Source of the DNA: a virus
Strand: one strand, 5' to 3'
DNA: 39,683 nucleotides
Virus record (IMG/VR): IMGVR_UViG_3300037222_000196
Location: 1-39,683 of that record
Within the stretch, counting starts at the first letter, position 1, and each line of letters begins with the position of its first letter. Shown here one piece after another: positions 1,028 through 36,986 of the stretch. Both the position numbers and the translations under genes were made by a program. The notes under the pieces were generated by a model, which made no database searches, was not told the origin of the DNA, and worked only from the letters and a program-made list of their open reading frames with translations.

Positions 1028-3208
1028 ATGGCAGCAGGAGATTTCAACACACTACCACTCGCGGAACTGGGTCAGATTCGTATCATCGATCTGCCCGGTG
1101 CAGTCCCTCCTGGCGAACTCGCCCTCCCCATCGGCCAAAATGACGTTGGATTCCCTGATCAGGAACGTTCCGATGTCAGTATGCTCAAGGAGGCGACACA
1201 AAACCGCCTTCTTTCTGAAGCATTTGAAGCCTCTCGCGGCCTAATCGGCAACTGGAACCTCGCCGAACTCATGCTTCGCGCCTATGTTGAGCCAATCAAG
1301 TGGAAGGGCAGTGATCAATACCGCTCTCACTTGGGCTTACCCATCCTAGCAGAGCATATGTACAGCATGTTGGGTGTTGTTCAACAGACTCTCTTTGCTG
1401 GATACAACCCTTTCTCTCTCGATCCCACTTCGGGCACTGATATAGACACCGCCGCCGCCGAAACTGCCTTGGTTCGCGCTCAATTCAAGATGGCAGGCTT
1501 CAAAGGCATGACTTTCAAGCAGGAAATGCGCCATGTGACCTATGACGGCCTGCTTTACGGTACCGGCGCGGCCCATTATGGCTGGGAAACCTATCGTCTT
1601 GAAGTCAAAAAGATGCGGAACAAGCATCAGGGCACAAGTGTTGCCGTCGAAGGGGGAGCAGTCAATATTCCCCAGGGTGCGACTGATGACATCGAAGAAT
1701 ATGTTGATCACATCATTGAATTCAATCAGGCCAAGTTCGAGCACGTTCCCATCCGTCGTCTCCGCGTAGATCCCTCCTGCCGTCGTGAAATAGCCACCGC
1801 TGGTTGGGCCGGTCGTCTGATTTATGTCAGCACTTATTGGTTGGACCAGCATCGTGACACGGAAGGATACGACATTCCCAGTCGCGAAGACCTCATCAAG
1901 CTGACCACGCCACAGAAGCAGGACACCACCAGCGTCAATGTTCTGGATACCCAGGGTGCCAACACTGGAAACCCGATCTTCCAGCAAGCTGTGACGCCGC
2001 AGAAGGCGTATCCGGAGAACTACGATTACAGCAAGTCTGATCCTCTGGCTAAGGAATGGGAGATTTTCGACTACTGGACTCCTACCCGTCATTGCATGGT
2101 GCTGGAAGGACAGAAACAGATCTTCAACGGATCGCATACTGAGGGAAAGGTTCCGTTCCTGAGCTTCACATTCCGTGAGGCTCCCGATAGCTTCTACGGC
2201 TATGGGATGGGCTTCTGGCTAACCGACTATCAGCGCATAGCGCAAGGGTTGGTGAACGCTTTCTTCGATGACGTCAACCTGAACTTGATGGGAACCTACA
2301 CAACCGACGCGGGCATGAACAACACCGCTCAGGCGCAGTGGATCTTCCCTGGCAAGATCATGAAGACCGATCCGGGTAAGAAGATTGAGCCTTTGACTCG
2401 CAACAGCATCGGGATGGAACCTCTCGGAATCATCGAGCAGGTCAAGTCTTGGGCCGTGGCGATCTCCGGCGCGGGCGTCAATGCCCAAGGCGTCAACCCT
2501 GGTAAGACGGGTGATATGCGCACGGGCGCGGGCGTTGAAGCCATGACTTCCGGCGAGAACGTCAAATCCACAGATTTGATTGACCAGATTTCAGATCTCA
2601 TGTTTGTGCCGTTCATCGAATACATTATCCGGCAGAACCACAAACTGAAGCCGTCTCAGATCAAGACTTGGCTCAGCGATGAGCTTGCTGCCTCTTACAA
2701 GAAGGTTGATCCGCTGTCTGTCATCAATGGACAGTATAAGGTGACGGTCTCTGCTGCTTCGCGCCTCAGGGCGCGTCAGCAACTGAACCAGGTCATGGGC
2801 TTCATCCAGACTTTGGTGCAGGCACCGGGCACGGTAGAACTGCTGGGAGTTCAGGCTCTCAAGTTCGACGCGGCGGAGTTCCTCAAAGCCGTTTTGGATA
2901 GCTCTGGTGTTCCGTACCGCGAGAATTTCATCAAGCCGATGTCCGATGAGGACAAGCAACGTTACGCAGCTTCGCAGAACCAGCCGCCTCCGATGGCACA
3001 GAAGGTTCAGTTGGAGACAGATGCCAAGAAAGAGGTTGATAACAACCAGGCGGAGAACCGCATGCTGTTGGAGACCGCTAAACACGTCAACCAGTCGAAG
3101 CAGAACGAACAGACTCATGGGCAATCACTAGAACAGGATGCCCTGAATCGTGTTCAGAGACAAGGTTTGATGGCCAGTGACAAAGCCGCCGGAGGAGCTC
3201 AAGAATGA
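1028..3208 (+). CDS. Portal protein (podovirus-type head-tail connector)
   Basis: The 726-residue protein stands first in a portal, scaffold, capsid series, as in many podoviruses. The N-terminal half carries features of podoviral portals: an early helical part with a W-K-G-S-D-x-Y-R-S-H-L-G-L-P stretch, then a body ending in polar, Gln-rich helices (from about residue 640). It would form the dodecameric ring through which DNA is packaged by the terminase and ejected into the tail. A GAGG lies six bases before the ATG. The last codons overlap the next gene by ATGA, which indicates translational coupling. The call rests on size, order and overall sequence look, and I cannot run a profile search. 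Confidence 0.8.
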   Translation: MAAGDFNTLPLAELGQIRIIDLPGAVPPGELALPIGQNDVGFPDQERSDVSMLKEATQNRLLSEAFEASRGLIGNWNLAELMLRAYVEPIKWKGSDQYRSHLGLPILAEHMYSMLGVVQQTLFAGYNPFSLDPTSGTDIDTAAAETALVRAQFKMAGFKGMTFKQEMRHVTYDGLLYGTGAAHYGWETYRLEVKKMRNKHQGTSVAVEGGAVNIPQGATDDIEEYVDHIIEFNQAKFEHVPIRRLRVDPSCRREIATAGWAGRLIYVSTYWLDQHRDTEGYDIPSREDLIKLTTPQKQDTTSVNVLDTQGANTGNPIFQQAVTPQKAYPENYDYSKSDPLAKEWEIFDYWTPTRHCMVLEGQKQIFNGSHTEGKVPFLSFTFREAPDSFYGYGMGFWLTDYQRIAQGLVNAFFDDVNLNLMGTYTTDAGMNNTAQAQWIFPGKIMKTDPGKKIEPLTRNSIGMEPLGIIEQVKSWAVAISGAGVNAQGVNPGKTGDMRTGAGVEAMTSGENVKSTDLIDQISDLMFVPFIEYIIRQNHKLKPSQIKTWLSDELAASYKKVDPLSVINGQYKVTVSAASRLRARQQLNQVMGFIQTLVQAPGTVELLGVQALKFDAAEFLKAVLDSSGVPYRENFIKPMSDEDKQRYAASQNQPPPMAQKVQLETDAKKEVDNNQAENRMLLETAKHVNQSKQNEQTHGQSLEQDALNRVQRQGLMASDKAAGGAQE

Positions 3209-3618
3209 TAACTCTTGATAATCCGTACGAAGCACGCACGACTCTTCCAATTGATCGGGCGAACCGTTTGCTCGCTCTTCGTGGCCATCCGGGATTCCAA
3301 GACCTTATCGCGATCTCTCTTCAGACCGTGAAGGCGGCGGAAGCCGCCGTGGTTGACTATGACGGATGGGATAAGGATGAGTTAGTGGCGCGGAGCATTG
3401 CTTTCCGCGCTGCGAAACGGTCCCACGAGATGCTTTTCGTGAACATGGCCGCTGTGATTCAGAACGGCATCACGGAAGCTGTGCAGCTCCGAGATGAACA
3501 GGTGGCTGCGCTGCCCAACGACAAAAAGAGTGCTGAGATGGCCGATGAGCTTCGTGCTCTGGTGCTGGAACAGATGAAGGATGACAAATACGAGACCCGC
3601 ATCCCGGGTTCTTACTAG
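3205..3618 (+). CDS. Portal-adjacent helical protein with a terminase-like C-terminal tail
   Basis: This 137-residue, mostly helical protein starts inside the portal stop codon and ends eight bases before the scaffold ribosome binding site. I do not recognise its family. Its last nine residues are Y-E-T-R-I-P-G-S-Y, preceded by an acidic K-D-D-K. The large terminase (8164-10641) ends with Y-D-T-R-I-P-G-S-Y, preceded by K-E-D-E-S. The two stretches use different synonymous codons, so the match is held at protein level. A shared docking or tail peptide is the natural inference. The protein may be a head-completion or portal-associated factor. Confidence 0.75.
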   Translation: MITLDNPYEARTTLPIDRANRLLALRGHPGFQDLIAISLQTVKAAEAAVVDYDGWDKDELVARSIAFRAAKRSHEMLFVNMAAVIQNGITEAVQLRDEQVAALPNDKKSAEMADELRALVLEQMKDDKYETRIPGSY

Positions 3619-3628
3619 GAGAAACAAA

Positions 3629-4597
3629 ATGCCAGAAGCAATTGAAATGCGCCCCGAAGGTGTTGAACTCGAAGTCAACGACGATATGACCAAGGCGTTG
3701 GAAGCCGCCGTCTCGCCGGAGGAAATCAAGCAGATCATCGCACAGGAAGCGGCGAAGCAGAATATCGTCATTCCTCGTGACAATAAAGGTCGCTTCGTTC
3801 CGGTGGCGGAGAAGAAAGAAACCGCTCCTGCTGACAAGAAGGACGACGAGACTTTCGTCTATTCCGATGATTTCTCAATTGGTGGGAAGGACTACCACTT
3901 TGAAGGTGACTCTCCTGCCGACATCAATCGTCAGGTGAAGGCTGCCATCGCCGCTCATGAGAACGCCACCAAGCCGGTTCAGCAACAGACCGCAACCGTC
4001 GATGGGGCCAAGGCGAAGCAGGACGAACTCCTGGCTCTGCAACTCGATGTTATGAGTGGCAAGATCACCATGGACGAATACATCGTCAAGTCTGGCGCTG
4101 TCGACAAGTATCTCCAGAGCAAAGGCATCAACACTAGTGAACTGAAAGAGTTGGTGGATGAGAAGAAAAACGCCAAAGAAGTCGGTTCCTGGGAAGCGGC
4201 CACGGCTGAATTCCTGAAGTTGGAAGGAAACGATTGGCCCGGTGGTGACCAGAACCTCAAAGTCATGGGGTACAAACTGGCGGAGTTGGGTCTCAATGGC
4301 AAGCCGTCTGCTGACAGTCTGCAAAAGGCGTATGACGCCATGAAAGCGGACAACATGGTTTTCGCGGTTGCCCCACCGGCAGAAGAGCCGAAGCTCAAGA
4401 AGAAAGCAGCCAGTTCATCGGCTTTCGGAGTTAGCGGTGGCGATAGTCGCAGAGACGCGGCGCAAGTTCATACCTCAGCAGTGGTTCCTACGATCACCCC
4501 GGATATGTCTCCTCGGGACATAATGGAAGCCTTCAAAGCGGCAGCTCAGGCACAGGGAATTCATCCTGACGAGTTGATTAGGCAGGCGCAAAGATAA
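3629..4597 (+). CDS. Scaffolding protein
   Basis: The 322-residue protein is rich in Lys, Glu, Asp, Ala and Gln, with no predicted globular hydrophobic core and long helical stretches. It lies directly upstream of the major capsid gene, the usual place of podoviral scaffolds. It contains a D-N-K-G-R-F-V-P stretch near residue 50 and a C-terminal helix with M-S-P-R-D-I-M-E-A-F near residue 300, of the kind that binds capsid subunits. The start at 3629 is chosen because an AGGAG lies seven bases upstream. An earlier in-frame start would overlap the preceding gene deeply. It should guide procapsid assembly and leave before packaging. Confidence 0.75.
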   Translation: MPEAIEMRPEGVELEVNDDMTKALEAAVSPEEIKQIIAQEAAKQNIVIPRDNKGRFVPVAEKKETAPADKKDDETFVYSDDFSIGGKDYHFEGDSPADINRQVKAAIAAHENATKPVQQQTATVDGAKAKQDELLALQLDVMSGKITMDEYIVKSGAVDKYLQSKGINTSELKELVDEKKNAKEVGSWEAATAEFLKLEGNDWPGGDQNLKVMGYKLAELGLNGKPSADSLQKAYDAMKADNMVFAVAPPAEEPKLKKKAASSSAFGVSGGDSRRDAAQVHTSAVVPTITPDMSPRDIMEAFKAAAQAQGIHPDELIRQAQR

Positions 4598-4598
4598 A

Positions 4599-4640
4599 TT
4601 TTCTAACTACGCCACCCCTCATTAGTGAGGTAATTTTCTT
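4599..4640 (+). promoter_or_regulatory. Leader of the major capsid gene with SD-containing hairpin
   Basis: The leader starts TTTTCTAACTAC at 4599-4610 and then holds the hairpin CCTCA-TTAG-TGAGG at 4617-4630. The GAGG of the 3' arm is the Shine-Dalgarno sequence, ten bases before the ATG. The opening 12 bases, the C-rich middle, the GAGG and the AATTTT are repeated before the gene at 11456. This may be a promoter with leader or a translational control element. Confidence 0.55.
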
Positions 4641-5639
4641 ATGCCAAGCCTAGCACCCGGCGTCCAGTCGAATACTCTGGCAGCCTTTCCGCAAATTGCT
4701 TACGACCGAACCGCCGTTATGGAATGGCAGTTCAATACACCGGCCCTTGAAGAGCTCTGCGACTTCCGTCCGCTAGCTCGCCGTTCTGGCCGCACGATTC
4801 AGTTCTATGGTCAACAGCCCTTCGCCGCCGCCTCCGGCTCGGTCTCGGAAGCTGTTCCGCCTCCGTCCCTCAGCTTGTCTCAGGTTTTCAGCGATGCGTA
4901 TGCTGATGAATTTGCTGACTGGCTAGGAATCGACAACGTGGCTCAGTCGATGTTCCTAGCTGACGTCACGCTGGATGCTTCCCGCAACCTGTCCTACCGT
5001 GGAGCATTGACTGGCAACTCGGTTGCCTTCAACGCATTCGAGTCCGCTGCCGCCGCGCAATCCGCCGCCCGCATCGATCTCTCCGACAACCAGTTCCTGC
5101 TTTCCAACACGATCCGCAAGGGTGAGGCTCAGTTGATGGGCAACGCCGTCCCGGGCCGCGATGGTGGAATGTACTCGACCGTAATGCATCCGTTCATGGT
5201 TTATGACTTCATGTCGGACAACAGCGCGGGTTCGGCTGTCGATACACTGAAGCGTTCTGATTCCGGCGCTGCCGTCCTGAAGGGCGACATGGCGCGTGGC
5301 TATCAGGTTCTGGAATGGGCTGGATGCCGCATTATCCGCACCCCAACCGTTCCGTCTTACTCGAACTATCCGTCCAGTGGCAAAACAGGCTATGCCTGCT
5401 ACACCGTAGGCCGCGAAGCGATGCTGGCTTCTGAGCTGATGGGACAGAAGGTTCCGCGCAACCCGAGCTTCAAAGTCAACGTGAAGTATTTCGGGGACAA
5501 CGACATCGACCTGTCCAACCCCTGCCTCCAGACTCGTGCGATCGTCTCGTATGACTGGTTCCTGGGTGTTGTGGCCCGTCCGAACACCAACGGCACTCCG
5601 GGCTTCCGCCGCGTGCGCGCTGAAGTTTCGGCTGTCTAA
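4641..5639 (+). CDS. Major capsid protein
   Basis: The 332-residue protein follows the scaffold and precedes a strong terminator. Features fit an HK97-fold capsid protein of the podovirus/N4-gp56-like kind: an early E-W-Q-F-N-T-P-A-L-E-E-L region, an F-R-P-L-A-R-R-S-G-R stretch, a histidine/methionine motif M-H-P-F-M-V-Y-D-F near residue 183, and late V-S-Y-D-W-F. It would form the icosahedral shell. The isolated leader before it and the terminator after it suggest it is expressed strongly as its own unit. Exact family assignment needs a structure-based search. Confidence 0.8.
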   Translation: MPSLAPGVQSNTLAAFPQIAYDRTAVMEWQFNTPALEELCDFRPLARRSGRTIQFYGQQPFAAASGSVSEAVPPPSLSLSQVFSDAYADEFADWLGIDNVAQSMFLADVTLDASRNLSYRGALTGNSVAFNAFESAAAAQSAARIDLSDNQFLLSNTIRKGEAQLMGNAVPGRDGGMYSTVMHPFMVYDFMSDNSAGSAVDTLKRSDSGAAVLKGDMARGYQVLEWAGCRIIRTPTVPSYSNYPSSGKTGYACYTVGREAMLASELMGQKVPRNPSFKVNVKYFGDNDIDLSNPCLQTRAIVSYDWFLGVVARPNTNGTPGFRRVRAEVSAV

Positions 5640-5646
5640 CTTTCTA

Positions 5647-5682
5647 GGGCGGTTATCGCTATAGCCGCCCAAAGAACTTTTT
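5647..5682 (+). terminator. Terminator after the major capsid gene
   Basis: GGGCGG-T-TAT at 5647-5656 pairs with ATA-G-CCGCCC at 5661-5670 around a CGCT loop, giving a ten-base stem with one G-U pair. A T-run follows at 5678-5682. It lies eight bases after the capsid stop codon. Confidence 0.75.
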
Positions 5683-5696
5683 GAAAAGGAAAAACC

Positions 5697-6326
5697 ATGA
5701 ACTCACCTCTCGTTATCGCAGCGCAAGTAGCTGGAAGCATCCAGAACACTCTCGCAGCTAATGCCACTGGCACCAGCACAACCGAAACCGCATTTCAGGT
5801 CAATGGCAACTCCATTGCCGGCATCGCGGCTAAGGTTTCTCCTGTTGGTATCGGCAACACCGGCATTTTCGTCGCTGGACAGTATGCTCTGAGCACGCTC
5901 GCGAGCACGGGTCTCCCGTTCCGCGTTCGTCTCTGGGGCTTTGCCAAGAGCGGCGGCACACAGAACTTGACTATCGCTCTCTACCAGGTGCCTGCGGCTT
6001 CCATTTCTGGCCTGACTGCCACGTCCTTCACGGGCGCGACTGCCATCGCCACAACTGGCGCCAAGGCTGTGAACTCGACTTCGGGCGCATTCTACCTTGA
6101 CGTAATTTGTCAGGGCGTGGCCGAATCGACGACCGCTGTAACTCTTCAGGGCGTCCAGGGCGTCGCCGTTGTCAACAACAGCGCCGTTGCTGCAGCCGCG
6201 ATCACTTCGGTGGCCAGCCTGCAGGGTGAACCTGACTTCAACTTCTTCGTTACCTCGACCCTTTCGGGCGGCAACACGGGAGATGTGGTCACACTGTCCG
6301 GCCTCCAGATCGAGCTGGTCGGGTAA
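5697..6326 (+). CDS. Probable head decoration or minor capsid protein
   Basis: The 209-residue product is rich in Ala, Gly, Ser, Thr and Val with almost no charge, typical of a beta-structured virion surface protein. It has no signal peptide and no catalytic motif. It is a single-gene unit between two terminators (5647-5682 and 6350-6388), next to the capsid gene, which is where many phages keep decoration or head-fibre proteins. AAAAGGA lies just before the ATG. I do not recognise the family, and the virion role is from position and composition. Confidence 0.65.
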   Translation: MNSPLVIAAQVAGSIQNTLAANATGTSTTETAFQVNGNSIAGIAAKVSPVGIGNTGIFVAGQYALSTLASTGLPFRVRLWGFAKSGGTQNLTIALYQVPAASISGLTATSFTGATAIATTGAKAVNSTSGAFYLDVICQGVAESTTAVTLQGVQGVAVVNNSAVAAAAITSVASLQGEPDFNFFVTSTLSGGNTGDVVTLSGLQIELVG

Positions 6327-6349
6327 GATTTTCTCCTAAGAAAGAACTT

Positions 6350-6388
6350 AAGGGGCGAAGCGGAACCTTCCGCCCGCCCCTTTTGTTT
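6350..6388 (+). terminator. Strong intrinsic terminator
   Basis: The outer stem AAGGGGC (6350-6356) pairs with GCCCCTT (6376-6382). An inner stem GCGGAA/TTCCGC forms within it, and TTTTGTTT follows. This is a textbook rho-independent terminator for the unit ending at 6326. Confidence 0.85.
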
Positions 6389-6400
6389 AAGAAGGACGAC

Positions 6401-7057
6401 ATGGATCAACTTCCCGCAAACTTGATATTCCAGAAGCCCCTCGGGTATTTAGTCCGTCATGGTTCGACCGAGGCCAATACTGATAACTGCTTTCGCGGCT
6501 GGATTGATTTTCCTCTAGACGATGAGGGTCGTCAGGCTGCGGAGGCCGTCCAGAACTTCTTCTCATACGAACGGTTGGGCCGGGTGTTCTGCTCTGATCT
6601 AAGTCGCGCTGTCCAGACAGCACAGTACATCATGGATGGTGGAAATGTCTGTTGCCCGTATCTTTCTGTAGAACCGTCCTTGCGCCCTTGGAACATCGGG
6701 GACTTCGCTGGACAGAAGAAATCGAAGGCCACTTTGGACAAATTCCACAAGTATGTGGAAGATTCATCCCTTGTGATTCCTGAAGGTGAATCCCTGGATC
6801 AATTCCGTCATCGCAACCAGATCATCATGGATTATTTGGCTGTTCCCTACGAGGGATACCCGAACGTCATCGTCGCTCACACCTCCAACCTCACGGCTTG
6901 CCAGCATTGCGCCGAAGAACAGAACGAAGCGCAGGAAGAGGAATCGGACATCGTCGGACCCGGTGGCATAGTTGCCGTCTATCTCATCAACAACCAATTG
7001 CAATTTGTTCCGCGCCTTGGCAGTATTAGTGTATCAGAACCAACTGGAGTGTCGTAA
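6401..7057 (+). CDS. Histidine phosphatase superfamily protein (phosphoglycerate-mutase-like)
   Basis: The 218-residue protein has the signature R-H-G at residues 19-21 (V-R-H-G-S-T-E-A-N), a second catalytic Arg in S-D-L-S-R-A-V-Q-T-A near residue 69, a glutamate in P-E-G-E-S near 122 and the second His in V-A-H-T-S near 153. These are the residues that take and release phosphate in this superfamily. The ATG at 6401 is preferred over an upstream TTG because GAAGGA lies before it. The substrate is unknown. It stands just after a terminator in the head module, which is unusual, and may act on sugar or nucleotide phosphates with the glycosyltransferase at 10613. Confidence 0.85.
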   Translation: MDQLPANLIFQKPLGYLVRHGSTEANTDNCFRGWIDFPLDDEGRQAAEAVQNFFSYERLGRVFCSDLSRAVQTAQYIMDGGNVCCPYLSVEPSLRPWNIGDFAGQKKSKATLDKFHKYVEDSSLVIPEGESLDQFRHRNQIIMDYLAVPYEGYPNVIVAHTSNLTACQHCAEEQNEAQEEESDIVGPGGIVAVYLINNQLQFVPRLGSISVSEPTGVS

Positions 7058-7612
7058 GTGGCGAACGTGCTGCCTTCACATTTCGATTCCGCTGATTTCC
7101 TGCCCGCTGAACAGGCCATAGCCCGTTACAAAGCAGAGAAAATCGAGCCTCAACTCGATAAGTATCGTCTCTGGGATCATGAATCCTTCAAGGATTTCGA
7201 GCAGCGCAAGGGCAAAGTGGTCCACTCCAGCCGATTCATTCACAAGCTCCGTCAGTTGAACCCCCGTATTATCGTTCAACGTCAGATCAACTATCCTGAC
7301 GACTGGGGTCTCTACATACATCGTGATAACCATCTCGTGTATCTGACAGGTCTCAGCAAGGGATGGCTTACTGAGTTCTCCTACACTACCGTGGATGAGG
7401 CGAACCTGCCTTCCGATCCACGGTGGGGTTGGAGACATGTGTTGGTTCGTCTGATGAGCAAAGGCGTTCTCTCCTGGGCTACCGTACTGCGGGAGTTCGG
7501 CAATTGCCAGAACGCTAACTCAGATCGTTGGATGATGTACACGCAACCTTTCCGCAGCCGCCAGGCCAGCGGTATCGTCCATGGGAATCTGAAAGCTCAC
7601 TTCGTTGATTGA
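7058..7612 (+). CDS. Conserved-looking hypothetical protein, 184 residues
   Basis: It begins with GTG directly after the phosphatase stop codon, with GGAG nine bases upstream, so the two genes form one operon. The protein is soluble, mixed alpha/beta, rich in Trp, Arg and His (for example W-G-L-Y-I-H-R-D-N-H and W-G-W-R-H-V-L-V-R-L). It has no signal peptide, membrane span or motif I can name. Its place before the terminase genes may mean a head-related role, but nothing in the sequence proves it. Confidence 0.6.
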   Translation: MANVLPSHFDSADFLPAEQAIARYKAEKIEPQLDKYRLWDHESFKDFEQRKGKVVHSSRFIHKLRQLNPRIIVQRQINYPDDWGLYIHRDNHLVYLTGLSKGWLTEFSYTTVDEANLPSDPRWGWRHVLVRLMSKGVLSWATVLREFGNCQNANSDRWMMYTQPFRSRQASGIVHGNLKAHFVD

Positions 7613-7628
7613 CGCTTTCCACAGATTC

Positions 7629-7681
7629 GTTAATTCGTATTAAAAACCAAATATGGGTTGCTCACATAGAGGTCCAATTCT
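7629..7681 (+). promoter_or_regulatory. Palindromic site and leader before the terminase unit
   Basis: TTAATTCGTATTAA at 7630-7643 is an imperfect palindrome. The same site with one base changed (TTAATGCGTATTAA) lies at 32649-32662, before another gene cluster. Both are followed by AAAA(A)C. Downstream, CACATAGAGG supplies the Shine-Dalgarno sequence nine bases before the ATG at 7682. The site looks like an operator or promoter, but neither role is proven. Confidence 0.45.
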
Positions 7682-8152
7682 ATGGCTGAGCCGAAACCTG
7701 TAACTCCTGAAGATCCCAACCGTGCAATGATCCGTGACGTCGTCAAAGAATTGTTCAAGGAGATGGGTCCCATCCTCCAGTCCATCGCCCTGACGCCGGA
7801 GAAACTCCGCGAGGCTCAGAAGCCTTATGAGGATCCCCTCCAGATCGCCCGCGAACTACACGAACAAGAGAACTGGCGGCAGCAGGAGCGCGACAAGGAG
7901 AAAAACAAAGCAGACCTGCAGGCGCACTGCACCCACAAGGACAAGAACGGCAAGTGGAATGTCAGTTTGCAACACAACTGGCACGACATGCAGCCTCGCG
8001 GTATCTGCAAGATCTGTGGATTGTTCATTCACCCGGCTTACTGGGATTTCCGCCCGGAAGCTGACGCCAAGGGCGTCGTGAAGGACAAGGCGTACATCGT
8101 TCCAGAGCACAAGCTCTATTACATCGTGCGGGAACTCGAAACCTTCTCCTAA
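7682..8152 (+). CDS. Terminase-adjacent zinc-binding-like protein
   Basis: The 156-residue protein has a charged helical N-terminal half rich in Glu, Lys and Gln, then a Cys/His set (H-C-T-H near 80, C-K-I-C-G and I-H-P near 120) that could hold zinc. It ends 11 bases before the large terminase start, so it is probably co-expressed with it. Position would allow a packaging accessory role. The sequence does not look like a classic small terminase, and a better TerS candidate lies at 36522. I do not recognise its family. Confidence 0.6.
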   Translation: MAEPKPVTPEDPNRAMIRDVVKELFKEMGPILQSIALTPEKLREAQKPYEDPLQIARELHEQENWRQQERDKEKNKADLQAHCTHKDKNGKWNVSLQHNWHDMQPRGICKICGLFIHPAYWDFRPEADAKGVVKDKAYIVPEHKLYYIVRELETFS

Positions 8153-8163
8153 ACCGGAGCGCC

Positions 8164-10641
8164 ATGAAGGCTCCCTACAAAGTAGATATGCAGAACTTCC
8201 CGTCCGGATTCATCCGGGCGTATGAGGCTCTGTCCCCCGAAGCCAAGGAGAAATGGCTCGCTGACCGCTACCGGGCGCTCACGGACGGTCTCTACCTTGG
8301 CTCCGAAGTCTTAGGCATGGACTTTCAGGACATCCCTCATCGCTGGCTATTCGCCAAAATGCTCAAGAAACAACCGGGCATTCCTCTCTATGACCTGGAC
8401 ATAGTCAAAAAGAAGCGGATGATCCTGTGGTCTCGAGGTACCTTCAAGACCTCGGCTGTCATCGTAGAGATCGCCCAACTCATTCTCAATTATCCCAGCA
8501 TCCGTATCTGCTTCCTAACGGGCGGCGATATGCTGGCCAAGCGCCAACTAGACCGCGTGAAGCGCGTCTTTGAGCGTCCCACCAAGAAATTCCGTGAACT
8601 ATTCCCAGAGTTCTGCGGCGAAAAGCTCGGCAACATGAGTGAGTTCACGGTTCCTTGTCGCAAAGACGACATGTTCGCCGAACCGACCATGGCGACTACT
8701 ACAGCCCGTAGCGTCAAGGCCGGGTCCCACTTTGATGTGATCTTCGTAGACGACTTGGTCAACGACCAGAACTATCGCAGCATCAAGGCTCTCCAGAAAT
8801 GTATTCAGGACTACAAGGACGTCTGCCCGTTGCTCGCTCCTGATGGTTTCATCTACGTCACGGGCACGCGGTACTCGTTCGGGGATTTGTACGAGAACAT
8901 CCAAGAACTGATCAAGAAAGAGATGGAAGAAGTAGGTACGAATCCCTGGATAGTGACCATCAAATCCTGCTGGGTCAAGATCTGCAAGACTTGCGGGCAC
9001 AGGGACATCGAGCATGACTTCGACAGCAACTTGATCGAGCATCCCTGCGCTCTCAAGTGTAAGTGCAAGCAGTTCGTGGATAGCGGCGGCCAGAGCGTTC
9101 TCTTCCCGAAGTTCCGCTGCCGTGACGGACGTACAGAGGGGCACAGTCCAGAGTTCCTGAACGCTGAGCGAATCCGTCTAGGCGCAGAGTTCTTCGCTTG
9201 TTTCCCCGCTGGATCTCCAGTGCTTCGCGCAGACTGGACGGAAACTCCTGTTGAGAAGTTGAAGGTGGGAGATGAGATTGTTGGATTCTCTAAAGGACTT
9301 GAAAGGGCTGTGGTCCAACATGTTCACGTGGAACGCTCCAAAGTGGTGAGAATAACCACGAACACCGGCAGGGTGTTCTGTTGTTCTCCTGACCATAAAT
9401 TTCTCCGGGAGCCAAATGGAATGCCTCGAAAGTATGGGATTCTTTACCTGGGAAGTGAAGTTGTATCCGTGTACAAACCTGCTCCTTCCCCCTCAGCTTC
9501 TCAACAAAGAGATCTCGATTGGCTAGGGGGAATCTTAGATGGAGAAAGTGATGGGACGGGTATAGCTCAATCGCTCAAGGCTAATCCTGAAGTTCACAAA
9601 AGAATCGGAGAGGTCCTCAATCGTTTAGACATAGACTTTAATCTAGCCGCAGGCCGTGGGGGGTATTCAGATACGCCTTGTGATATTTTTGAAATGAGAG
9701 GAGGACGTTCTCTTCTCGTAAGGCTATTACGCGATTGTAATATGGCAAAAATATCAAGATTTGTGAAGTCCTTATGGTCTTCTTCAGGGCACATCGCAGA
9801 AACCTCAGGTCGAGGGGGACGCGGTCACTCTCTAGAAAGAGTGATCAGAATAGAAGATCTGGGTGAAGACACAGTCTACAATATTCAAAGCAGTTCTGGG
9901 AACTTTGTATGTCATGGTTGCGCGGTCAAGAATTGTCAGTATGAAAACAATCCTATTGCCTCAGGCGAACAGACGTTCACGGAGGAGCTACTCGGGAAGC
10001 AGACCGTTTGGCATGAGAATCAGTACCCTACCGCGCTTCAGGCTCATTGCTTCATCGTTGGTGACTTGAGCTATGTTGGAGACGACCATCGAGACTTGAG
10101 CGTCCTCTACGTTGTGCGTTACTTCATGGGACAACTCTATGTGGTAGATTGCGATTTTGGCAAGTGGGATTCATGGTCTACAGCGCAACATCTCTTCGCG
10201 CTCATTCTGAAGCATCGCCCGCACATCATCTGGTTGGAGCGGTTCTTGGGCTGGGAAGCCTATCAGACTGTCTTCGACATCTTCGCCCGCGACAATAACA
10301 TCCAGAAGTTCCCGGTCGAATGGCACAAGATGACCAACCTGGAGGGCGCGAAGCGCGTCCGCATCGGCGCTATCAAAGGCGTATTGAGTCAGCGACGTCT
10401 TTGGATTGTTGGACTCATCTTGGGTTATGAGCAGCTCTGTGATCAACTAAAGAAATGGCCGAAGTTAGGCCGCCATGATGACTTCGCAGATTGTCTGGGC
10501 CTAGTCTGTGAGGTTCCATCGGGCTTCCAGTTGGACAAACTGCCGAAGATAGCGGATGGCAGTAACCAATCGTTTATCCGCAAACTCCATCAGGTGAAGG
10601 AGGATGAGTCGTATGACACCCGTATCCCCGGTTCCTACTGA
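8164..10641 (+). CDS. terL: Terminase large subunit with an in-frame intein
   Basis: The precursor is 825 residues, or 580 after removal of the intein (residues 346-590). The packaging ATPase has a Walker A variant S-R-G-T-F-K-T-S at 90-97, Walker B I-F-V-D-D at 193-197 and a coupling motif G-T-R-Y at 234-237. The RNase H-like nuclease after the intein shows G-D-L-S-Y at 633-637, with later acidic residues in I-W-L-E-R-F and H-D-D-F-A-D. Between the two domains, seven Cys at 269-319 suggest an added zinc ribbon. The enzyme docks on the portal, pumps DNA and cuts genome ends. It ends in Y-D-T-R-I-P-G-S-Y, shared with the portal-adjacent protein. Confidence 0.92.
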   Translation: MKAPYKVDMQNFPSGFIRAYEALSPEAKEKWLADRYRALTDGLYLGSEVLGMDFQDIPHRWLFAKMLKKQPGIPLYDLDIVKKKRMILWSRGTFKTSAVIVEIAQLILNYPSIRICFLTGGDMLAKRQLDRVKRVFERPTKKFRELFPEFCGEKLGNMSEFTVPCRKDDMFAEPTMATTTARSVKAGSHFDVIFVDDLVNDQNYRSIKALQKCIQDYKDVCPLLAPDGFIYVTGTRYSFGDLYENIQELIKKEMEEVGTNPWIVTIKSCWVKICKTCGHRDIEHDFDSNLIEHPCALKCKCKQFVDSGGQSVLFPKFRCRDGRTEGHSPEFLNAERIRLGAEFFACFPAGSPVLRADWTETPVEKLKVGDEIVGFSKGLERAVVQHVHVERSKVVRITTNTGRVFCCSPDHKFLREPNGMPRKYGILYLGSEVVSVYKPAPSPSASQQRDLDWLGGILDGESDGTGIAQSLKANPEVHKRIGEVLNRLDIDFNLAAGRGGYSDTPCDIFEMRGGRSLLVRLLRDCNMAKISRFVKSLWSSSGHIAETSGRGGRGHSLERVIRIEDLGEDTVYNIQSSSGNFVCHGCAVKNCQYENNPIASGEQTFTEELLGKQTVWHENQYPTALQAHCFIVGDLSYVGDDHRDLSVLYVVRYFMGQLYVVDCDFGKWDSWSTAQHLFALILKHRPHIIWLERFLGWEAYQTVFDIFARDNNIQKFPVEWHKMTNLEGAKRVRIGAIKGVLSQRRLWIVGLILGYEQLCDQLKKWPKLGRHDDFADCLGLVCEVPSGFQLDKLPKIADGSNQSFIRKLHQVKEDESYDTRIPGSY
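9199..9933 (+). mobile_element. Intein with one LAGLIDADG-type motif inside the terminase
   Basis: The intein is residues 346-590 of the precursor (245 residues). It opens with Cys346 in C-F-P-A-G-S-P-V-L and has K-V-G-D-E-I at 367-372. A block B-like S-P-D-H is at 408-411 and an endonuclease motif L-G-G-I-L-D-G-E at 454-461. It ends N-F-V-C-H-G-C-A-V-K-N590, followed by Cys591 of the terminase. Removal rejoins A-E-F-F-A to C-Q-Y-E-N-N-P, the normal terminase join before the nuclease. The penultimate residue is Lys, not the usual His. Arg codons AGA/AGG and AT-rich stretches differ from the flanking gene, which fits acquisition by homing. Only one LAGLIDADG motif is clear, so the endonuclease would act as a dimer or be decayed. 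Confidence 0.88.
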
Positions 10642-34345: not shown

Positions 34346-34642
34346 ATGGGACAAACGAACACAACCACGATCACACGCACCTGTGACGTCTGCCAGAAGT
34401 CTGTCAGTCTGGTACAGGGTCATACCACAGCGGAACAACTGAAGGCGGCGGCGGGTTGGTTCGTCGTCATGCAGGAGCATTGGCTGAAAGAGGACCAGTT
34501 GCAGTCGATGGCCAAGCTGGCTTGCAGCAAGACCTGCGCTCTTCAAATCCTGCATCGGGACATGACGGATCTGCCGAAGACTGAATTCACGTGTCCGATC
34601 CCGGCTGCTGAACCTCTGGACATGACGAAGCTGGCGAACTGA
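34346..34642 (+). CDS. Small zinc-finger-like protein, 98 residues
   Basis: C-D-V-C near residue 13 and C-S-K-T-C near 61 form a possible four-cysteine zinc site around a helical centre (A-E-Q-L-K-A-A-A-G-W-F-V-V). AAGGAG precedes the ATG. Its stop overlaps the groEL start (TGATG), so it is made from the same message as the chaperonin and may be a partner or simply an upstream gene of the operon. Confidence 0.65.
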   Translation: MGQTNTTTITRTCDVCQKSVSLVQGHTTAEQLKAAAGWFVVMQEHWLKEDQLQSMAKLACSKTCALQILHRDMTDLPKTEFTCPIPAAEPLDMTKLAN

Positions 34643-36258
34643 TGAGCAAGAACCTGGATTATGGCAATGCGGCGCGGGAGAACATCCTCCGGGGTGTGGA
34701 CTTCCTTGCGGATGCGGTAAAAGTTACGCTCGGCCCCAAAGGTCGGAACGTTGCCATTGGACGGCGGCTGCTGGGTCTTCCCCCGCAAGTGACCAAGGAC
34801 GGTGTCACTGTGGCCAACTCCGTGAATCCTTCTGATGCCCGGATGCAGATCGGCTCCGATCTCACTCGTGAAGCCGCCAACCGCGCTGTATATGCGACGG
34901 GTGACGGCACCACGACTGCCACCGTGCTTGTGCAGGGGATGGTTCATGCCGGAACAAATTTCATCGAGAAGGGAACCGATCCCTGGTCTCTCAAGCGCGG
35001 CATGGACAAAGCTGCTGATCTGGTGATTGAGCAACTCCGCACTCTGGCGCGGCCCATTGATGATCCTAAGCAGACGTTCCACGTTGCCAACATCTCGTCT
35101 AACTATGACAACTTCATCGCGACCAAAGTCTGTGAAGCGTTTGAGAAGGTTGGTGTGGATGGCGTCGTCTCTGTAGAAGAGTCGGGCACCGTGCTCACTG
35201 AACTGAAGATGACCTCGGGAATCCAGTTTCGATCCGGCGGATTCATGTCGTCTACGTTCGTGACTGATCTGGAGCGGTTTGAATGCGTCTATCAAGATGC
35301 TCTCGTTCTGCTGTTTGAGGGACGCATTGGATCTGCAAGATCTCTCGCTCCTCTCTTCGCGCAAGTAGCCAAGACTGGGAAACCCTTCCTCTGTGTTGCT
35401 GGGGATTGGGAACAGGATGCCCTGGCCCTGTTGGTTGCCAATCGTCAACGCTCCAATGCTCCGGTGGTCGGTGTCAAAACCGGAGCTTACACAGAACGAC
35501 GTCGTGATTTGCTGCGTGACATCGCGGCTCTCACGGGCGGCACCGCCGTGCTGGACGATAGCGGCACCCGACTTGAATCGGTGACTCTCGAGATGTTAGG
35601 CCAGGCCAAGCGCATTGTGGTCAGCGACAAGGACACCACGATTGTGGAAGGTTACGGCAAGGTGGAGGATGTCAAAGCGCGTATCTCAGAGATTCGCACC
35701 AAGCTGGAAACAGCCAAGGGTGTGGACGAACTCTGGTTGAAGCAGCGCCTGGGGCAACTCACGGGTGGCATCGCTCTCATCCAGGTTGGGGGAACCACCG
35801 AGACAGAGATGCGCGAGCGCAAGGATAGATTCGATGACGCCGTAGGCGCGACCCGCTGCGCAATCGCGGAGGGATATGTACCGGGCGGCGGGTTGGCTCT
35901 TCTGAAAGCACAAGCCCGAATTTTCGAGACTCTCGAGGGTGACGAGCAGGCTGGGCTGGTTGTCGTATCCCAGGCCTGTGCTGAACCTATGAAGCAGATC
36001 GTCAAGAATGCAGGATTCAATCCGGAAGAGATCCTGATCAAAGTTATGGGGGATCCCACTTACCGTCTACCCCAAGCAGACTTTGGCTTTGATGCTAAGA
36101 CCGGAGAGTATGCTCCGCTGATTGAGCGCGGGATTATCGATCCTCTCAAGGTTGTAGTCGAGGCCTTCAGGAATGCAGTAGCCACGGCGGGGATGATTCT
36201 GACTACCGAGTGTCTCTGCACAGAAGTGGAGGTGCAACATGTTCCGGCCACTGTATGA
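34642..36258 (+). CDS. groEL: Phage chaperonin GroEL
   Basis: The 538-residue protein is a full-length group I chaperonin: V-T-L-G-P-K-G-R-N-V near 28, ATP-site aspartates in T-K-D-G-V-T (53) and G-D-G-T-T-T (88), the catalytic Asp at 399 in D-D-A-V-G-A-T-R, and G-Y-V-P-G-G-G near 411. It would form a ring that folds phage proteins with GroES. In the apical substrate face the E. coli stretch with Tyr199, Tyr203 and Phe204 reads G-G-F-M-S-S-T-F here, so one aromatic is lost and one residue added. The Gly-Gly-Met tail of bacterial GroEL is absent. groES follows, the reverse of the usual host order. Confidence 0.97.
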   Translation: MSKNLDYGNAARENILRGVDFLADAVKVTLGPKGRNVAIGRRLLGLPPQVTKDGVTVANSVNPSDARMQIGSDLTREAANRAVYATGDGTTTATVLVQGMVHAGTNFIEKGTDPWSLKRGMDKAADLVIEQLRTLARPIDDPKQTFHVANISSNYDNFIATKVCEAFEKVGVDGVVSVEESGTVLTELKMTSGIQFRSGGFMSSTFVTDLERFECVYQDALVLLFEGRIGSARSLAPLFAQVAKTGKPFLCVAGDWEQDALALLVANRQRSNAPVVGVKTGAYTERRRDLLRDIAALTGGTAVLDDSGTRLESVTLEMLGQAKRIVVSDKDTTIVEGYGKVEDVKARISEIRTKLETAKGVDELWLKQRLGQLTGGIALIQVGGTTETEMRERKDRFDDAVGATRCAIAEGYVPGGGLALLKAQARIFETLEGDEQAGLVVVSQACAEPMKQIVKNAGFNPEEILIKVMGDPTYRLPQADFGFDAKTGEYAPLIERGIIDPLKVVVEAFRNAVATAGMILTTECLCTEVEVQHVPATV

Positions 36259-36529
36259 CCAAGTGTTAGTTGCTGACGTCAATCATGAGCAGATGCTTGA
36301 TGGCATTGTGTTACCAGAAACCTCCAAGGAAGATGTTCTCTTCTCCAAAGTAATCGCGATTGGTGAAGGCTACATACAACTAGACGGTTCTCTGCGTCCT
36401 CTAAGAGTTGCTGTGGGAGATCTGATCGCAAGAGGAATGTACTCAGGAATTTCTATGCGGTTGGAGGGCATGGAGTTTCGTTTGATTCAAGAAGGCGAGT
36501 GTCTCGGGAAAGTGGTGTCCAATGGCTGA
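36239..36529 (+). CDS. groES: Phage co-chaperonin GroES
   Basis: The 96-residue protein has the beta-barrel pattern of GroES (R-P-L-Y-D-Q-V-L-V) and a mobile loop with G-I-V-L-P at 22-26, the same core that binds GroEL. A full roof-and-barrel end follows. It starts within the last 20 bases of groEL, with GGAGG six bases before the ATG, so the two subunits are made in step. It caps the GroEL ring. It can be expected to work with the phage GroEL and maybe the host one. Confidence 0.93.
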   Translation: MFRPLYDQVLVADVNHEQMLDGIVLPETSKEDVLFSKVIAIGEGYIQLDGSLRPLRVAVGDLIARGMYSGISMRLEGMEFRLIQEGECLGKVVSNG

Positions 36530-36986
36530 AGAAATCGAATCTAAGAGAATGGGCTGGGAAGAGCTCTCCCGGACGCCGGAGTTCGCAACGTTGACAAAGA
36601 AGCAACAGCTCTTCATGTGCACTTACATCTCGAACGGCTACAACGAGATTTCTGCCATTCGCACGGCATACAACTGCAAGAATGACAACTCTGCAAAAGT
36701 CATGAGCTACCCGCTCCTGCGCAACTTCAACATTTGTCTCGTTCTAAGCATTCACTTCGGCAGCGATCAGAGAGAAGCATTCCTGGCCCGTCTGCAACGT
36801 GACATTGCGAAGGGTAACATCTCGGACTCCTTGCTGAGAGCGTACACGCTGTACGCTGAGGTGCGCGGTTGGCATGGGTATGGAAACGCGAAACCGAGGT
36901 CAACATCAGAGAAGATAGAGGCCCAAGTTGAACCCGAGAAGAAATCAGAACCCAACTCTTTCGACCTGAGTGGATTTGAACGCTAA
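36522..36986 (+). CDS. terS: Probable terminase small subunit
   Basis: The 154-residue protein has L-T-K-K-Q-Q-L-F-M-C-T-Y-I-S-N-G-Y near residue 24, then E-I-S-A-I-R-T-A-Y and S-Y-P-L-L-R-N. This is the usual N-terminal HTH of small terminases (L-T-x-K-Q-x-x-F and A-x-x-A-A-x-x-A-G-Y-S patterns). The middle is helical and the end is polar. It should bind the packaging start site and hand DNA to the large subunit. It overlaps groES by eight bases. In most phages TerS adjoins TerL; here TerL is about 11 kb away across the circle. Confidence 0.7.
   Translation: MAEEIESKRMGWEELSRTPEFATLTKKQQLFMCTYISNGYNEISAIRTAYNCKNDNSAKVMSYPLLRNFNICLVLSIHFGSDQREAFLARLQRDIAKGNISDSLLRAYTLYAEVRGWHGYGNAKPRSTSEKIEAQVEPEKKSEPNSFDLSGFER

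Follow-up and report, generated by a model that had tools for sequence, protein, structure and literature searches.

A short C-terminal peptide with the consensus [DE]-[STN]-R-[IVLP]-[PA]-G-[ST]-[YF] is shared by two proteins of an uncultured podovirus-like phage family, the large terminase subunit (TerL) and a small helical protein encoded between the gene for the portal and that for the putative scaffold (hereafter the small post-portal protein). Judged from sequence comparison, RxxG[ST][YF] qualifies as a short linear motif that is portable and conserved at the protein level, since it is found on TerL in one clade and in about four further places inside a clade whose TerLs otherwise end in sequences such as GCGTGIVC. 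Both tails were recognized in the window, that is, the whole stretch of DNA analyzed here, a 39,683-base virus record from IMG/VR (Table 1).

Table 1. Positions in the window of the two motif-bearing genes and of the head and packaging genes discussed in the text.
Feature	Position	Strand	Remarks
Portal protein	1028..3208	+	phrog_1216 portal, E 5e-19; 64 homologous loci; putative receptor for both tails
Small post-portal protein, 137 aa, helical	3205..3618	+	Between portal and scaffold genes; the 3205 start overlaps the 3' end of the portal gene
YETRIPGSY, C-terminal motif of the small post-portal protein	3589..3615	+	Followed by TAG
Putative scaffold protein	3629..4597	+	Precedes the major capsid gene; homologous to the corresponding gene in relatives; no PHROG match
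Major capsid protein	4641..5639	+	phrog_1357, E 2e-10
Large terminase subunit (TerL) with intein	8164..10641	+	phrog_38, E 4e-38; homologues 47-74% identical
In-frame TerL intein, 245 aa	9199..9933	+	Residues 346-590; begins with Cys, ends Val-Lys-Asn, followed by Cys
YDTRIPGSY, C-terminal motif of TerL	10612..10638	+	Followed by TGA
Small terminase subunit (TerS)	36522..36986	+	phrog_51, E 2e-6; without the motif, C-terminus SFDLSGFER

The tails lie exactly where a preliminary description of this DNA had placed them, with eight of nine residues common to both. Their conservation had been attributed to the protein rather than to a DNA copy, and this holds: 5 of the 27 bases differ, four of them synonymously, and both tails are kept in homologues. 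The flanking DNA has identical bases at only 22 of 60 positions upstream and 12 of 60 downstream. The two proteins, said to be otherwise unrelated, are aligned by BLASTP over the last ~40 residues only (E 9e-5) and by profile-profile comparison over the last 16 columns only. No further protein of the window has the tail, as had also been claimed; when ORF ends were scored, the two carriers each reached 38, and the next best reached 9.

Searching IMG/VR with one window protein at a time returned no relatives, and neither the cultured phages searched with small post-portal proteins nor the GTDB species genomes gave a match. Relatives were instead reached by scanning DNA for the motif pattern and then searching with profiles. 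The scan recovered seven IMG/VR contigs with a TerL gene encoding the ending YDTRIPGTY, one of which yielded the small protein too; profiles from these contigs led to TerLs at 47-63% identity, and a portal profile led to 64 portal-bearing IMG/VR loci, with a homologue of the small post-portal protein adjoining the portal gene in 56. Removal of near-identical contigs left 47 small post-portal proteins and 47 TerLs for counting carriers, and 15 near-complete relatives together with the window formed a set of 16 genomes and 1259 gene-like ORFs. The gene order in relatives is TerS, one gene, TerL, portal, small protein, scaffold, and capsid. Comparison with L028 and L036 showed that terL lies upstream of the portal gene in relatives and downstream of the capsid genes in the window, whose TerL keeps its tail despite this location and the intein. 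A gene (6383-7057) that by eye looks histidine-phosphatase-like also sits within the head-gene cluster of the window and has an apparent counterpart in L017 and L028.

The motif was searched as [DE]-x-R-x-x-G-[ST]-[YF(H)] at or near the C-terminus, and proteins were classified as carriers if [RKQ]xxG[ST][YFH] occurred no more than 30 residues from the end, other ORFs being counted from 60 aa upward. It was present in 46 of 47 non-redundant small post-portal proteins (39 exactly at the end, 7 with residues after it), in 17 of 47 non-redundant TerLs (12 terminal, 5 with ten residues beyond it), and in 8 of the 2252 remaining ORFs of portal-bearing loci; the strict form [DE]xRxxG[ST][YF] was found in 39/47, 17/47, and 0/2252, respectively. 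Fisher tests of the enrichment gave p values (~1e-86 for the small protein and ~7e-25 for TerL) that are too strong because homologues are not independent, and the confinement of the motif to two genes stands independently of them. The same restriction was seen across the 16 near-complete genomes, in which no third carrier was found among the 1259 gene-like ORFs. The motif is thus neither frequent at the ends of other proteins nor peculiar to the window, as the tails recur in homologues of both carriers, and the earlier reading withstands both observations.

Preferences at each position agree between the two proteins: an acidic residue two before the Arg, I/V/L/P after it, and then P/A, an invariant Gly, S/T, and Y/F. 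Among homologues at 47-74% identity, both tails are retained in most of the window's clade, where the TerL and small-protein tails read, respectively, YDTRIPGSY/YETRIPGSY (window), YDTRIPGTY/YDTRIPGTY (L028), YDTRIPGTY/YETRVSGTY (L071), YDTRIPGTY/NETRIPGTY (L108), and DETRIAGSY/GETRTPGSF (L040). Matching of the two tails within genomes appeared significant when pairs were shuffled freely (p 0.02) but not when they were shuffled within clades (p 0.43), and co-variation is therefore not claimed. On the small protein the motif occurs in every lineage, the deepest included, and its sole clear loss is in one phage represented by several contigs (L029, L030, L031, L032, L036), whose small protein ends QTRNEGAAVCQ, with no tail in another reading frame, and whose TerL retains the motif. 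The preliminary description had also stated that both motifs end at the last residue; this is correct for the window but is no rule for the family, since some relatives have 1-16 further residues after the motif in the small protein, or 10 in TerL. A PDZ-like arrangement, with the motif as the last residues, accordingly does not hold for seven of the 47 small proteins or for five TerLs, and recognition of a free C-terminus is not required.

The small post-portal protein belongs to no Pfam or PHROG family and has no sequence relative in the PDB. Its AlphaFold2 model (pLDDT 78.5) contains four helices (14-27, 29-50, 57-102, and 106-127) followed by a tail block with a pLDDT of about 51; in L040, L041, L043, and L044 the last long helix is absent and the tail is kept. 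A fold search gave no trustworthy PDB match, and no adaptor fold of the SPP1 gp15 or HK97 gp6 type was among the matches listed (Foldseek, VIA-align), helical models being prone to unspecific matching. Weak BFVD matches were to uncharacterized phage proteins, among them accessions whose lengths, 76 and 118, suit the CHOED and RiverRider proteins. Phage tf gp68 (about 80 aa), RiverRider gp78, and CHOED_090 occupy the same position between portal and scaffold genes, but the phage tf and CHOED proteins, unlike the small post-portal protein, are without the motif. In TerL, residues 566-574 and 576-579 of the AlphaFold2 model have pLDDT values below 50 and no secondary structure, so that in both models a low-confidence, presumably flexible C-terminal peptide follows a folded core. 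The motif lies within tails predicted to be disordered, and the linkers in them vary.

The ATPase and nuclease core of the window TerL shows full-length homology to the TerLs of the group (phrog_38; 47-74% identity). The protein owes its length of 825 aa to an intein, which gives weak Intein_splicing/Hint Pfam matches and is absent from all aligned TerL relatives, with no copy in nine relatives. The intein holds a LAGLIDADG-like stretch, LDWLGGILDGESD, and is weakly similar to intein-bearing genes of Mycobacterium phages.

The TerL tails themselves are of at least three alternative kinds. Type A, in the window clade, has RxxG[ST][YF] at the end; type C has it followed by ten residues ending WK, mostly DPxxxWK; and type B has GxG[TSN]G[ILF] instead (e.g., GCGTGIVC or GGTGSGLVSG). 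Three other kinds were also seen. On both the portal tree and a tail-free TerL tree, type A forms one clade and type C occurs in about four places inside the type B clade. Five changes of tail state were counted on the portal tree and five on the TerL-core tree, with direction not fixed and with terL gene exchange as a possible source of inflation. The RxxG[ST][YF] tail is thus variable and does not define the family for TerL, being absent from 30 of 47 TerLs (about 60% to two thirds), whose small proteins nevertheless keep RxxGSY. A frameshift relation between types B and C was ruled out by reading all three frames, and sister comparisons, which had low power, identified no portal column tracking TerL tail type at p<0.01. 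From L076 to L123, the tail GxG[TS]G[IL]V(C/S) is strongly conserved and confined to TerL, and it may resemble the GG[IL]VL of GroES mobile loops. Two further conserved elements were observed: an intergenic sequence after terL of types B and C (L100, L082, L117, L103), AAGACTTTTC...CATAAGTAGAG, which may be a regulatory signal, and an acidic tail on TerS itself (FDLSGFER, FDLSDFESDK, and FNLGDFEEE in the window, L009, and L004).

A motif that is flexible and portable, and that two packaging-stage proteins display, suggests a docking peptide. The reading we favor, to which we give about an even chance, is that a single receptor at the portal vertex accepts both tails, the likeliest candidate being a pocket of the portal protein. 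The small post-portal protein would occupy or prime the portal site during head assembly or head completion, and TerL would dock at the same site for packaging, the two either alternating or sharing twelve equivalent sites with the five-subunit motor. TerLs of the other tail type would dock via a different peptide. A common docking signal had been proposed earlier, and its bases in protein-level conservation, restriction to two genes, and recurrence all stand. The shared tail is not obligatory, given the TerLs with other tails and the lineage that keeps it on TerL alone. Use of a shared site cannot be obligatory either, in view of the type B TerLs and of the L036-lineage small protein without the motif. 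It is conceivable, though rather doubtful, that the small protein, on which the motif is widespread, is the occupant of the portal site and that TerL has copied its tail about five times, replacing another, so that both compete for one set of portal sites.

The choice of the portal as the most likely receptor follows precedents in phages lambda, P22, and SPP1. The tail of lambda TerL differs in sequence from that of the window TerL, and we know of no second lambda protein that shares it. Lambda TerL (gpA) has its tether, like the window TerL, at the extreme C-terminus after the nuclease domain (PMC4856287, PMC9026076), and without its last five residues it cannot dock on the portal (PMC4856287). 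In P22, gp4 inserts an extended C-terminal tail between portal subunits; gp4 and the terminase touch different parts of the portal, however, and no motif shared by them is described (PMC5290284). In SPP1, the terminase and gp15 occupy the same pocket of the gp6 portal clip one after the other, and gp15 no longer binds when its five C-terminal residues are replaced (PMC9701221). Such sequential use of a portal pocket is the mechanism proposed here, although the account, as far as consulted, reports no tail sequence common to the SPP1 pair, unlike the pair in the window (PMC9701221). SPP1 gp15 resembles the small post-portal protein in its small size, four helices, and C-terminal tail, but the latter has no sequence match to gp15 and no fold match to it among the matches listed, and differs in the position of its gene between those for portal and scaffold.

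Other receptors were weighed against the portal. The common partner could be the scaffold or the major capsid protein, met in the procapsid: in relatives holding the region, the gene for the small protein is preceded by the portal gene and followed by the putative scaffold gene, and scaffold and capsid genes accompany it. Yet TerL, by textbook accounts, works from outside the shell at the portal vertex, a place where no scaffold is exposed, and the tails of lambda and SPP1 bind the portal, which makes this alternative unlikely. We also think it improbable that one carrier is the receptor of the other, with the TerL tail folding back, the tail of the small protein competing with it, and motor assembly being regulated in this way. 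The confinement of the motif to these two proteins fits such mimicry, which would also explain its repeated gain in TerL, but the TerL tail is unstructured and of low confidence in the model, and small proteins retain the motif where TerL has another tail.

Partners beyond the head and motor proteins appear more remote still. Short C-terminal motifs on unrelated proteins often bind a host factor or act as protease or turnover signals, here on two proteins needed only transiently; we regard this as very unlikely, because several relatives carry 1-16 residues after the motif and because only two genes, both of the packaging stage, encode it. That the motif serves as a handle for the GroEL of these phages, or for another chaperone, is hardly more credible: a GroEL gene occurs in 16 of the 21 related records searched, the window (34642-36258) among them, but chaperonin clients are, as general knowledge, seldom selected by a conserved C-terminal peptide, and the major capsid protein, a typical client, is without the motif. 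Finally, the near-identity of the two window tails might be taken for chance or for a recent gene conversion or DNA copy between the 3' ends. The five base differences, the unlike flanks, and conservation over deep divergence refute this, and a chance origin of the shared tail, judged on the enrichment over other ORFs and on its retention in both proteins of homologues at 47-74% identity, has a negligible probability.

As far as searched, the motif is new in literature and databases, and the type of mechanism is already known; the open-access literature yielded no tail or linear motif shared by a terminase and a head protein. Only fragments are known, from a few model phages, of the way in which terminase docks on the portal and of what keeps the site occupied or frees it before and after packaging. 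A peptide of nine residues common to the motor and a second protein offers a minimal reagent for locating the docking site and testing competition, and the natural variants, which number more than 40 and include cases of loss and replacement, serve as natural controls. The pattern of tail loss and replacement points to docking tails being modules that are exchanged in evolution, and if the small protein does occupy the portal site in competition with TerL, the shared tail would act as a switch, encoded in the sequence itself, for handing over the portal site in genome packaging.
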